From assembly GCA_947455935.1 (NCBI GenBank), contig CANGPV010000005.1, positions 1 through 47,814 of the forward strand: a stretch of 47,814 bases of DNA, written 5' to 3'. Positions within the stretch are counted from its first letter, which is position 1, and every line of letters starts with the position of its first letter. The position numbers and the translations under genes are program-made. Shown here one piece after another: positions 10,570 through 47,404 of this stretch. The notes below the pieces were generated by a model. That model made no database searches. It was given only the letters and a program-made list of their open reading frames with translations, and was not told the DNA's origin. The stretch is from Comamonadaceae bacterium (lineage in GTDB: Bacteria > Pseudomonadota > Gammaproteobacteria > Burkholderiales > Burkholderiaceae_C).

Positions 10570-10890
10570 GTGAAGCACGCTAGGCCGTCGCTGGTGCAAG
10601 GACAGAAATGTCGCACTGGAGGAACGTCCGGACTGCAAAGGACAGCGTAGGAGGTAACACCTCTCCACCGTGAGGTGAGGATCAGAGCAACAGAGACGAG
10701 CCGATTAAGTTCGGGTGAAACGGGCAATCTCTACGCGCAGCAATACCAAGTAGGCCAACGTTGAGGCGGTTCGCTGAGTTGGCGGGTAGGTAGCACCGAG
10801 CCGGGTGGGCGACCCCCGGCCCAGAGGAATGACGGTCACGTATTGGGTAACCAATATGCACAGAATCCGGCGTATCGGCGGGCTTCACAC
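10570..10890 (+). ncRNA. rnpB: RNase P RNA (class A)
   Basis: This is the catalytic RNA of RNase P, which removes 5-prime leaders from pre-tRNAs. The terminal P1 helix is GTGAAGC (10570-10576) pairing with GCTTCAC (10882-10888). Conserved blocks occur in order: GAGGAACGTCCGG (10619-10631), GCAACAGAGACGAGCCG (10687-10703), CAATACCAAGTAGGCC (about 10741-10756), AGAGGAATGA (10823-10832) and CAGAATCCGGCGTATCGG near the 3-prime end. The size, about 320 nt, is slightly shorter than in E. coli. The 3-prime limit is approximate. No terminator is visible, and the O-antigen ligase start codon follows 15 nt later. Confidence 0.93.
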
Positions 10891-44610: not shown

Positions 44611-46071
44611 ATGATTTCACGCGAACCTACCCTCGAGCGATTGACCATCGCACAAAGCCTGCTCCTCACTCCTTACGGTTTGGACGAATCCCATCTCACG
44701 CAGGCCTTGTCTGCCATTCGTGCTCACCAGGTGGATGATGCCGATTTGTACTTTCAGTACACCCGTGCTGAAGGCTGGAGCTTGGAAGAGGGCATTGTCA
44801 AAACCGGCTCATTCAGCATTGACCAAGGCGTGGGTGTGCGGGCGGTGAGTGGCGAAAAAACCGCGTTTGCATATTCCGACGATATTTCCATGGCCTCCCT
44901 GATGGACGCTGCACATACGGTGCGCAGCATTTCAGCAGCGGGGTTGAATGCCAGCACCCAAGTTCCTGCAAGAGTGATTGCACCCAGCCGATCCCTCTAC
45001 CAAGGCGTGGACCCTATCGGCAGCTTGGACAGCACCGCCAAAGTTCAGTTGCTCGAGCGCTTGGAAAAGCAAGCCCGCGCTAAAGATCCTCGCGTGGTGC
45101 AAGTCATGGCGGGTTTGGCCAGTGAATACGACGTGGTCTTGGTGGCACGGGCTGACGGCACTTTGGCCGCCGACGTCCGACCCTTGGTGCGCTTGTCCTT
45201 GTCGGTCATCGTCGAGCAAAACGGTCGTCGTGAAAGTGGCTCAGCCGGCGGCGGCGGTCGCTTTGGTTTGGCGCATTTTGATGCAGCTTGTTTGACCCGT
45301 TATGTGAACGAAGCTGTAGGCTCGGCCCTCACCAATTTGGAAGCGCAGCCTGCGCCCGCTGGCGAAATGACCGTGGTGCTGGGCTCGGGTTGGCCAGGCA
45401 TTTTGTTGCACGAGGCGATTGGCCATGGCTTGGAGGGCGACTTCAACCGTAAAGGCTCTAGCGCCTTTAGCGGCAAGATTGGCCAACGCGTAGCCGCCAA
45501 AGGCGTGACGGTACTTGACGACGGCACCATCGCCGATCGCCGTGGCTCGCTCAACGTGGACGATGAAGGCCACGCCAGTCAAAAAAATATACTGATTGAA
45601 GACGGTATCTTGGTAGGCTACATACAAGACAGCATGAACGCGCGTTTGATGGGCGTGGCCCCCACCGGCAATGGACGGCGCGAAAGTTATGCGCATGTAC
45701 CCATGCCACGTATGACCAATACTTATATGTTGGCGGGGAATAAAGACCCCGAAGAAATCGTCGCCAGCATGAAAAAAGGCCTGTACGCCACCAATTTCGG
45801 TGGAGGCCAAGTCGATATTACCTCTGGCAAGTTTGTGTTCTCTGCCAGCCAAGCGTTTTGGGTGGAAAACGGCAAAATTCAATACCCCGTCAAGGGCGCC
45901 ACCTTGGTCGGTAACGGCCCCGATGCACTCACCCGTGTCAGCATGATCGGCAATGACATGGCGCTCGATCCAGGTGTGGGCACCTGCGGCAAAGAAGGCC
46001 AAAGCGTGCCCGTGGGCGTGGGTCAGCCCACCTTGCGCATTGACGGCTTGACTGTGGGCGGTACTGCCTGA
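44611..46071 (+). CDS. tldD: Metalloprotease TldD
   Basis: TldD is a 486-aa peptidase that with TldE (PmbA, not in this window) forms a ring and degrades unfolded peptides, for example microcin and CcdA precursors in E. coli. The zinc motif HEAIGHGLEGDF starts at about residue 267 (HExxxH). GSGWPGILLHEA and MPRMTNTYMLAGNKDPEEIV are also characteristic. ATG 44611 gives MISREPTLERL; an upstream TTG at 44584 would add nine residues and has no support. The gene stands between rodA and the aroG leader. Confidence 0.96.
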   Translation: MISREPTLERLTIAQSLLLTPYGLDESHLTQALSAIRAHQVDDADLYFQYTRAEGWSLEEGIVKTGSFSIDQGVGVRAVSGEKTAFAYSDDISMASLMDAAHTVRSISAAGLNASTQVPARVIAPSRSLYQGVDPIGSLDSTAKVQLLERLEKQARAKDPRVVQVMAGLASEYDVVLVARADGTLAADVRPLVRLSLSVIVEQNGRRESGSAGGGGRFGLAHFDAACLTRYVNEAVGSALTNLEAQPAPAGEMTVVLGSGWPGILLHEAIGHGLEGDFNRKGSSAFSGKIGQRVAAKGVTVLDDGTIADRRGSLNVDDEGHASQKNILIEDGILVGYIQDSMNARLMGVAPTGNGRRESYAHVPMPRMTNTYMLAGNKDPEEIVASMKKGLYATNFGGGQVDITSGKFVFSASQAFWVENGKIQYPVKGATLVGNGPDALTRVSMIGNDMALDPGVGTCGKEGQSVPVGVGQPTLRIDGLTVGGTA

Positions 46072-46102
46072 AAGGCGCATGAGGCCTTGAAAAGGCCTGT
46101 GC

Positions 46103-46108
46103 TACATT
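46103..46108 (+). promoter_or_regulatory. Candidate extended -10 of the aroG leader transcript
   Basis: TGCTACATT is an extended -10 (TG-N-TACATT, 4 of 6 for the hexamer). The predicted start site is 46115, one base before ATG 46116 of the leader peptide, which has no Shine-Dalgarno sequence. Confidence 0.4.
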
Positions 46109-46115
46109 AATGCCC

Positions 46116-46184
46116 ATGGCTTCTTTGCACTTTTACTTTGCTTATTTTTTCTTCTCACGCTTCACCGGCGGTCGAGAGGTCTGA
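46116..46184 (+). CDS. Phe/Tyr-rich leader peptide of aroG
   Basis: This 22-codon frame ends with TGA 46182-46184. It contains six Phe codons (F6, F8, F11-F13, F16) and two Tyr codons (Y7, Y10), including three Phe codons in a row at 46146-46154. An in-frame ATG at 46110 could lengthen it by two codons. It lies 30 nt before a terminator and 104 nt before aroG, an aromatic-pathway entry gene, as expected for an attenuation sensor. CGGCGGT (46166-46172), inside codons 17-19, can pair with the first arm of the terminator. There is no other similarity. Confidence 0.8.
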   Translation: MASLHFYFAYFFFSRFTGGREV

Positions 46185-46242
46185 ACGCAAACAGCGCACT
46201 GAACCCCCGAACCAACCGCCGAAACAACGGCGGTTTTTTTTT
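46166..46242 (+). promoter_or_regulatory. Transcription attenuator of aroG (antiterminator and terminator)
   Basis: Segment 1, CGGCGGT (46166-46172), and segment 3, CGGCGGT (46228-46234), are identical, and both are complementary to segment 2, ACCGCCG (46215-46221). Pairing 1:2 is the antiterminator; 2:3 plus the T run (46234-46242) is the terminator. A ribosome stalled on the FFF codons leaves segment 1 free, whereas one at the leader stop covers it. So aroG should be read through when charged Phe-tRNA is scarce. This is inference from geometry. Confidence 0.78.
46214..46242 (+). terminator. Rho-independent terminator before aroG
   Basis: AACCGCCG (46214-46221) and CGGCGGTT (46228-46235) form an 8-bp perfect stem with loop AAACAA and a run of nine T (46234-46242). 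It lies 46 nt before the aroG ATG, so it must be conditional. Confidence 0.9.
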
Positions 46243-46288
46243 GCCCCACCTTTTTTGCAACGATCTGAAACGCCTCCAAGGAGCTTCG

Positions 46289-47404
46289 ATGAAAACCCCC
46301 AAGCATGATGCTTATGCACCGATCAATGACCAGACCAGCCAAACCGACAATCAACGCATCAAGGACATCACCGTGTTGCCGCCCCCTGAACATTTGATCC
46401 GCTTCTTTCCCATCGCAGGCACGGCCGTTGAGAGTTTGATCGCCAAGACCCGCCAGCGCGTGCACAAAATCATGGCCGGCAAAGACGATCGCTTGCTGGT
46501 GGTCATGGGCCCTTGCTCCATCCACGACCCGGCGGCTGCCTTGGACTATGCCCGCCGCTTGAAGGTCGAGCGCGAAAAATACGCCGATACGCTGGAAATC
46601 GTGATGCGGGTGTACTTTGAAAAACCCCGCACCACGGTGGGGTGGAAGGGCTTGATCAACGACCCCTACCTCGATGAGAGCTTTCGCATCGACGAGGGTT
46701 TGCGCATTGCGCGCCAGTTGCTGATCGAGATCAACCGCGCCGGTGTGCCCGCCGGCAGCGAGTTTTTGGATGTGATTTCACCCCAATACATTGGCGACCT
46801 GATCAGCTGGGGCGCGATTGGTGCCCGCACCACCGAAAGCCAAGTTCACCGCGAGTTGGCTTCCGGCCTGTCGGCGCCGATTGGTTTCAAAAACGGGACC
46901 GATGGCAACATCAAAATCGCCACAGACGCCATCCAAGCGGCTGCGCGCGGCCACCACTTTTTGTCGGTGCACAAAAACGGCCAAGTGGCGATTGTGCAAA
47001 CCCAGGGCAACCCCGATTGCCACGTGATTTTGCGCGGCGGCAAAACCCCCAATTACGACGCTGCGAGCGTCGCTGCCGCCTGCAAAGAGTTGGAAGCCGC
47101 CAAATTACCCGCCAGCCTGATGGTGGATTGCAGCCATGCCAACAGCAGCAAGCAGCATGAACGCCAATTGGTGGTGGCCCAAGACATCGCCGATCAAATG
47201 GCCAGCGGTTCGCACAGCGTGTTTGGCGTGATGATCGAAAGCCACCTCAAAGCGGGTGCGCAAAAGTTCACCCCCGGCAAAGACAAGGTGCAAGACTTGG
47301 CTTACGGCCAAAGCATCACCGATGCTTGCTTGGCTTGGGACGATTCCTTGCAAGCGCTGGAAGTGCTGTCCAAAGGTGTTAAAGCGCGGCGCGGTAAAAA
47401 ATAA
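46289..47404 (+). CDS. aroG: 3-deoxy-7-phosphoheptulonate (DAHP) synthase, AroG/AroF type
   Basis: This 371-aa enzyme condenses phosphoenolpyruvate and erythrose 4-phosphate, the first step of aromatic amino acid synthesis. It is very close to E. coli AroG: LLVVMGPCSIHDP (74-82 region), MRVYFEKPRTTVGWKGL, GARTTESQVHRELASGLS, GFKNGTDGNIK and DCSHANSSKQ. ATG 46289 follows AAGGAG by 5 nt. Which amino acid inhibits it allosterically cannot be fixed by eye; the Phe-rich leader suggests Phe control of expression. It is convergent with mpl 41 nt downstream, with no clear terminator between. Confidence 0.95.
   Translation: MKTPKHDAYAPINDQTSQTDNQRIKDITVLPPPEHLIRFFPIAGTAVESLIAKTRQRVHKIMAGKDDRLLVVMGPCSIHDPAAALDYARRLKVEREKYADTLEIVMRVYFEKPRTTVGWKGLINDPYLDESFRIDEGLRIARQLLIEINRAGVPAGSEFLDVISPQYIGDLISWGAIGARTTESQVHRELASGLSAPIGFKNGTDGNIKIATDAIQAAARGHHFLSVHKNGQVAIVQTQGNPDCHVILRGGKTPNYDAASVAAACKELEAAKLPASLMVDCSHANSSKQHERQLVVAQDIADQMASGSHSVFGVMIESHLKAGAQKFTPGKDKVQDLAYGQSITDACLAWDDSLQALEVLSKGVKARRGKK

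Follow-up and report, generated by a model that had tools for sequence, protein, structure and literature searches.

A predicted ribosome-mediated transcription attenuator with phenylalanine and tyrosine codons upstream of aroG in Burkholderiales

Introduction

The attenuators of enterobacterial pheA and pheST work with 1:2, 2:3 and 3:4 hairpins, and a Shine-Dalgarno sequence precedes their leaders. Escherichia coli aroG is under TyrR, and repressors govern the entry step of the aromatic pathway there. An attenuator of Corynebacterium glutamicum aroR-aroF was reportedly described by Neshat et al. in 2014.

According to the available part of PMC11802643, enterobacterial pheA (pheL) and pheST have a Phe-rich leader and are controlled by charged tRNA-Phe, and the C. 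glutamicum aroR leader, which lies before a DAHP synthase gene, gives readthrough on limitation of Phe, not of Tyr. The accessible portion of PMC4046766 shows Phe-Tyr-Phe in the aroR leader. For Sinorhizobium meliloti trpL-trpE(G), the available text of PMC7298713 describes an attenuator RNA that is leaderless and begins with the leader AUG. The Shewanella aroF 5' region is listed as an 'attenuator sensing tyr-tRNA' in the available part of PMC2659441, which cites older work. In the main text of PMC2965389, aroG and phenylalanine do not occur.

We analyzed a 47,814-nt stretch of DNA (the window) from a Comamonadaceae bacterium (assembly GCA_947455935.1, contig CANGPV010000005.1). An earlier note, made from the sequence alone, had proposed a ribosome-mediated attenuator before an aroG-type DAHP synthase gene. 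Conservation, strand co-variation and the DAHP synthase profile match all supported this proposal. It is very probable that a ribosome-mediated transcription attenuator couples aroG transcription to charged tRNA-Phe, probably also to tRNA-Tyr.

Results

The tldD-aroG intergenic stretch of the window

tldD ends at 46071, and the attenuator occupies the stretch between tldD and aroG. The order from tldD to aroG is an extended -10 box, a 22-codon leader frame, a protector hairpin over the last codons of the frame, a spacer and a terminator. The features are listed below.

46100..46108, + strand: extended -10 element TGC-TACATT, 7 nt before the leader AUG (read in the sequence)
46116..46184, + strand: leader peptide ORF MASLHFYFAYFFFSRFTGGREV, stop included; no Shine-Dalgarno sequence seen (read in the sequence)
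46131..46154, + strand: control codons Phe 6, Tyr 7, Phe 8, Tyr 10 and Phe 11, 12 and 13; a ribosome held there leaves strand 2 free in ribosome-mask folding
46151..46161, + strand: strand 1 of the protector (1:2) hairpin, overlapping the last Phe codons (minimum-free-energy fold)
46166..46179, + strand: strand 2; CGGCGGT at 46166-46172 pairs with strand 3 (antiterminator), and 46167-46170 and 46174-46179 pair with strand 1
46214..46242, + strand: intrinsic terminator, strands 3:4 with T9, -13.7 kcal/mol (terminator scan)
46215..46221, + strand: strand 3, ACCGCCG, common to antiterminator and terminator (read in the sequence)
46228..46234, + strand: strand 4, CGGCGGT (read in the sequence)
46278..46283, + strand: Shine-Dalgarno sequence AAGGAG of aroG (read in the sequence)
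46289..47404, + strand: aroG, the gene under control; encodes a type I DAHP synthase of 371 aa (profile matches)

The aroG product passed TIGR00034 with 534.8 bits against a cut-off of 173.2. Its best match was the AroG equivalog NF006723, yet the score was under that cut-off (542.6 versus 568). It was the sole DAHP synthase found in the genome, whose assembly is 84.85% complete and gave one AroG match. At this completeness, no type II DAHP synthase was found, and neither TrpR nor a TyrR-type HTH had a match. A second DAHP_synth_1 match was rejected as a DAHP synthase; it is KDO-8-phosphate synthase. The close named relatives in the scan were Comamonadaceae, e.g. Limnohabitans, Polaromonas and Acidovorax. 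The window also holds an ordinary bacterial class A RNase P RNA at 10572-10890 (204.1 bits).

The two CGGCGGT copies (46166 and 46228), ACCGCCG (46215) and the T9 all lay where they had been placed before. T9 spans 46234-46242 and shares the last T of the second CGGCGGT. The terminator-like site at 46214-46235 has 8 pairs. The fold of the leader RNA had a z of -2.43 against dinucleotide shuffles, and 3 of 200 shuffles were as good. The earlier note had described a minimal layout with 'no separate pause hairpin'. This part did not stand, as the minimum-free-energy fold contained a 1:2 protector hairpin at 46151-46179, in which 46151-46156 pair with 46174-46179 and 46158-46161 with 46167-46170. 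RNAalifold on 27 sequences, window included, predicted it at the same place with UCUC:GAGA, a pairing that is invariant in these sequences and therefore gives no co-variation. Thus, the element has the full four-strand attenuator design. The local energies in the window were -10.3 kcal/mol for 1:2, -19.9 kcal/mol for the stretch with 2:3 and -13.7 kcal/mol for 3:4.

Conservation of the element before aroG

The DNA upstream of aroG was compared at 30 loci of related genomes and at the best 80 loci of a scan of named genomes. The sample favours close AroG similarity and is mostly Burkholderiales; 2 of the 110 regions were too short, which left 108 usable. A first, generic detector found 69 of 110. 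Its misses had longer terminator loops, and a detector was then fitted to the CCGCC...GGCGG core. With it, 86 of the 108 usable regions showed a Phe/Tyr-rich ORF and, behind it, a terminator with this core. The earlier note had named such a frame in relatives as support for its proposal, and the comparison bore this out. Hydrogenophaga pseudoflava (L050) and Variovorax (L044 and L052) are among the named carriers.

For the background, a generic detector, not the fitted one, was run on all fetched DNA. A Phe/Tyr-rich ORF preceded 78 of 84 aroG terminators versus 4 of 95 others, and a stricter cut gave 75 aroG terminators versus 1 other; the background here is the other terminators in the same fetched DNA, and the window region is counted more than once (as the window and as L001).

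By the criteria used, 22 of the 108 aroG loci were without the element. They were the following.

First half: L026, L028, L029, L059, L065, L066, L068, L071, L073, L081, L084
Second half: L091, L098, L102, L105, L109, L110, L112, L115, L116, L117, L119

Three of them are named Polynucleobacter (L065, L066 and L068), and L071 and L073 are Cupriavidus loci, the latter on chromosome 2. Nine loci of weaker AroG matches showed no leader with a terminator by eye. Read directly, aroG starts a few dozen bases after tldD in L065, L066 and L091, with no attenuator. L059, a Comamonadaceae locus, has by eye a terminator and a leader with many His, Phe, Tyr and Trp residues, MRTTVRYHFWHFHIQHLTGAGVANA, that fell under the detection threshold.

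Leader codons and the sensed signal

The leader frame of the window runs from ATG at 46116 to TGA at 46182-46184 and has 22 sense codons. The six Phe codons are at 46131, 46137, 46146, 46149, 46152 and 46161, and the two Tyr codons are at 46134 and 46143. Direct reading confirmed the counts and all coordinates given in the earlier note. Trp codons are absent from this leader.

In an alignment of 21 close sequences, window included, Phe TTT occupied leader codons 8 and 11 in all 21. The variable columns were spread over codon positions 1, 2 and 3 (8, 9 and 9), so the leader peptide as a whole is not strongly constrained. Judged by this alignment, the aromatic codons are what stays constant. In the leader of L012, a one-base gap shifts the frame, and the end of the peptide is altered while the strand 2 RNA is not; the common GGRE peptide end therefore reflects RNA, not protein. 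In L048, L063, L067 and L069 (records from Acidovorax, Curvibacter, Simplicispira and Comamonas), the leader frame is closed by a stop codon immediately after the core of strand 2. Their peptides end VPGG or VLGG, that is, the peptide is shorter and the RNA is kept.

Over the leaders, Phe was the commonest residue (377 of 1892, 19.9%), followed by Tyr (154, 8.1%) and Trp (56, 3.0%). Among 85 distinct leaders, all had at least two Phe, 81 had Tyr, 53 had Trp and 50 had all three. In relatives, Trp often stands within the motif YFWFS beside the switch point.

These counts bear on a reading in which attenuation is real and the signal is a general aromatic shortage (Phe, Tyr and, in relatives, Trp), not one of Phe alone. 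We hold this to be a serious but somewhat improbable reading. The joint occurrence of the three residues in the 50 leaders speaks for it, as does the position of AroG, which, as the sole DAHP synthase found in the 84.85% complete genome, feeds all three amino acids. However, the window's own leader is without a Trp codon, and the Phe-Tyr-Phe leader of C. glutamicum aroR is reported as unresponsive to Tyr in the available part of PMC11802643. Phe is the surest signal because of the leader residue counts and the fixed Phe codons 8 and 11. Going by codon content, Tyr and, in relatives, Trp are possible further signals.

Co-variation of the strands

In the 85 distinct leaders, the cores were GGCGG in strand 2 (80 leaders), CCGCC in strand 3 (84) and GGCGG in strand 4 (84). 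The one exception in strand 4, GACGG in L013, was matched by CCGTC in strand 3 of the same locus. As the cores are nearly fixed, pairing has to be judged by the flanking bases. The nucleotide just 5' of the strand 2 core and the one just 3' of the strand 3 core made a standard pair in 68 of 85 leaders: C-G in 37, T-A in 20, T-G in 6, G-C in 3 and A-T in 2, so that all four Watson-Crick pairs were seen. Antiterminator flanks farther out paired less (54, 38 and 25 of 85).

The ragged 85-row alignment gave RNAalifold the terminator alone, without the protector. Therefore, a strand-swap test was used, in which each species' own strands were compared with strands exchanged between species (32 representatives with less than 72% identity, 5000 permutations). 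The z was -7.1 for the terminator (0/5000), -4.67 for the antiterminator (0/5000) and -2.63 for the protector (31/5000, weak co-variation); because the permutations ignore the tree, these figures are not exact probabilities. In eight control pairings, in which strands were reversed or were not partners, the z values were +1.73, +1.11, +1.16, +0.63, +0.60, -1.41, +2.04 and +0.45. Compensatory change in the terminator and antiterminator strands, which had been proposed as a check, was thus found.

An attenuator is not the only source of a hairpin with a T run at this place. It could be a tldD or intergenic terminator, with the aroG promoter after it and the Phe/Tyr frame there by chance. Taken alone, the window is compatible with this, and 61 of the 86 leaders have tldD in their fetched flank. 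The other 25 loci have the element with no tldD found in the flank, though, and the Phe/Tyr frame that recurs before aroG is rare at other terminators (4 of 95). Strand 2, which lies inside the frame, co-varies with strand 3. In the relatives L009, L010, L012 and L014, the aroG ATG follows just 10-14 nt after the T run; an aroG transcript that starts 3' of 46242, named beforehand as an observation that would speak against attenuation, is unlikely in view of this gap. We consider the terminator reading very improbable.

Another reading, in which a ligand-binding riboswitch or a T-box toggles the two alternative hairpins and the short frame plays no part, is hardly conceivable and was rejected. 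Alternative hairpins alone would fit it, but in this region no Rfam family, the leader families with the Phe leader included, reached its gathering score in a covariance-model search, the six weak hits up to E 10 included no riboswitch, T-box or amino acid leader, and the strand 2-3 stretch varied in length and sequence with no candidate aptamer seen.

Position of the switch

The attenuator was modeled by folding with a ribosome mask on RNA ending after strand 3, the stage where the decision would fall. For the window, the probability of the antiterminator was 1.0 with A-site codons 5-13, 0.97 at codon 14 and 0 from codon 15 to the stop. With the switch between codons 14 and 15, shortage can be sensed at seven of the eight aromatic codons but not at Phe 46161. 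When the ribosome was stalled at the best aromatic codon, the probability of the antiterminator was at least 0.5 in 31 of the 32 representatives, window included; with the ribosome at the stop, this held for none of the 32. The exception was L030, which showed no switch in the model.

Full-length equilibrium folding with the ribosome mask gave no switch in the window, and the probability of the terminator was 0.998-1.0 at every position tried. Averaged over the stall codons, the terminator won in 27 of 32 representatives. The antiterminator must therefore be a kinetic product, which forms first and persists. Without a ribosome, the window RNA gave 0.56 for the antiterminator and 0.44 for the protector, a default state that is not clean; the medians over the representatives were 0.03 and 0.91, respectively.

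Promoter and predicted leaderless start

A two-box sigma-70 scan found no promoter at the leader. Of the 86 leaders, 54 had the pattern TGnTAnnnT 5-9 nt upstream of their ATG (35 of them at 7 nt) versus 9 of 2730 control windows, a count in which the leader start was shifted by hand in L004 and L017 and whose pattern was first noticed on part of the same sequences. It was also present in 11 of 31 aroG loci fetched later, one of which was without a leader over the threshold. A Shine-Dalgarno-like 5-mer preceded 1 of the 86 leaders.

With an extended -10 element near the AUG and Shine-Dalgarno sequences nearly absent, a start on the leader AUG is predicted for the window's lineage and several others. 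In the window, the predicted transcription start is at about 46116, the A of the leader AUG. An in-frame ATG at 46110, between the -10 box and this position, is probably not transcribed. By eye, Burkholderia- and Massilia-type leaders seem to have a short 5' untranslated end without a Shine-Dalgarno sequence. According to the available part of PMC4603805, 72 genes of Burkholderia cenocepacia have a primary start site that coincides exactly with the annotated start, and leaderless transcription as such is thus normal in the group.

Distribution by covariance model

A covariance model of the element, run on 250 genomes sampled evenly across the order, matched 70 places in 68 of them at E <= 0.1; 60 of the places had E <= 4.5e-4, and the window's own genome had one place. 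Class-wide, with a limit of E <= 0.01, 5 of 229 genomes matched; three belong to the window's family, and the other two share a different family. The named carriers outside Burkholderiales were Xanthomonas and Dyella (L113 and L118).

Forty of the 70 places were fetched, none of them, by handle, from genomes used to build the model. Although aroG was no part of the search, it lay behind 31 of the 40, among them every one of the 30 with E <= 4.5e-4, and a Phe/Tyr-rich leader by the script criteria was present at 30 of the 31. Three of the 31 (L120, L123 and L157) were near a training leader, with 89-97% identity over most of it; none of the 31 was 95% or more identical over 800 nt to an earlier locus. 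The nine fetched places without aroG comprised six ordinary terminators, judged by eye, and three leaders of another gene. For the eight fetched places with E 0.02-0.09, the figures were six ordinary terminators by eye and two leaders of another gene.

A second kind of aromatic attenuator was seen among the matches. Its leaders have the cores YFYWYR, YFYWFR, FYWYHTNVRY or CFYWCHTNVRY. Of the 250 genomes, 15 have a match to an uncharacterised protein of about 170-200 aa, several of these matches being weak, and in 7 of the 15 such a leader stands before the protein. The leaders are at L162 (the same as L136), L163 (L143), L164, L165 (L139), L167, L168 and L169, upstream of the matched ORF, and a T run follows six of the seven. 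Three of the proteins had no Pfam or NCBIfam match over the cut-off. To judge by the leader codons, the gene behind them is apparently under Phe/Tyr/Trp control.

Discussion

Computation gives the anatomy of the aroG attenuator, its conservation, the co-variation of its strands and the position of its switch. In the model set out here, we infer where transcription starts, that the leader is translated, that the ribosome stalls and which physiological signal is sensed. RNA polymerase would start at or beside the leader AUG, and a ribosome would most likely load on the leaderless 5' end. Under a shortage of Phe (or Tyr), the ribosome would stall at codons 6-13 and open strand 1, leaving strand 2 free. 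Free strand 2 would capture strand 3 before strand 4 leaves the polymerase, the antiterminator would form and aroG would be transcribed. When the amino acids are plentiful, the ribosome would run on and cover strand 2 from codon 15 to the stop, and the 3:4 terminator would form. Transcription would then end at about 46242 with release of an RNA of about 127 nt. With no ribosome on the RNA, the 1:2 hairpin would compete for strand 2 and favour termination, only partly so with the window sequence.

The entry enzyme of a large betaproteobacterial group thus appears to be governed by an attenuator. The element adds a conserved RNA family whose switch is simple and can be tested, and it would explain how aroG is set by amino acid supply. 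Many leader peptide genes can now be annotated, and the aroG leader offers a further system for studying translation start on leaderless mRNA. No description of the aroG element was found in a literature search that had most subscription papers outside its scope. A wider reading is tentative, and we think it rather improbable: an RNA family absent from Rfam and leaderless in many members would integrate Phe, Tyr and Trp supply at aroG of Burkholderiales and some relatives of Xanthomonas, replacing the enteric TyrR and TrpR, and its RNA of about 127 nt may act in trans.

Among the described systems, C. glutamicum aroR-aroF resembles the window in that its DAHP synthase gene is preceded by a leader containing Phe and Tyr codons, as far as the available parts of its sources go. 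It belongs to another phylum, and the likeness is one of described features. Enterobacterial pheA (pheL) and pheST share the Phe-rich leader in the available text on them, but they control a terminal branch and a tRNA synthetase, whereas the window element controls the entry step. S. meliloti trpL, in the available part of its source, has the leaderless leader mRNA that is predicted for the window. It is alphaproteobacterial, with Trp codons and a trp gene, whereas the window is betaproteobacterial, with Phe/Tyr codons and aroG. The terminated RNA of that system, rnTrpL, and its peptide act in trans according to the available text of PMC7298713. The aroG element is a widespread case of the classical kind of attenuator, and its predicted leaderless start and mixed aromatic codons are unusual.
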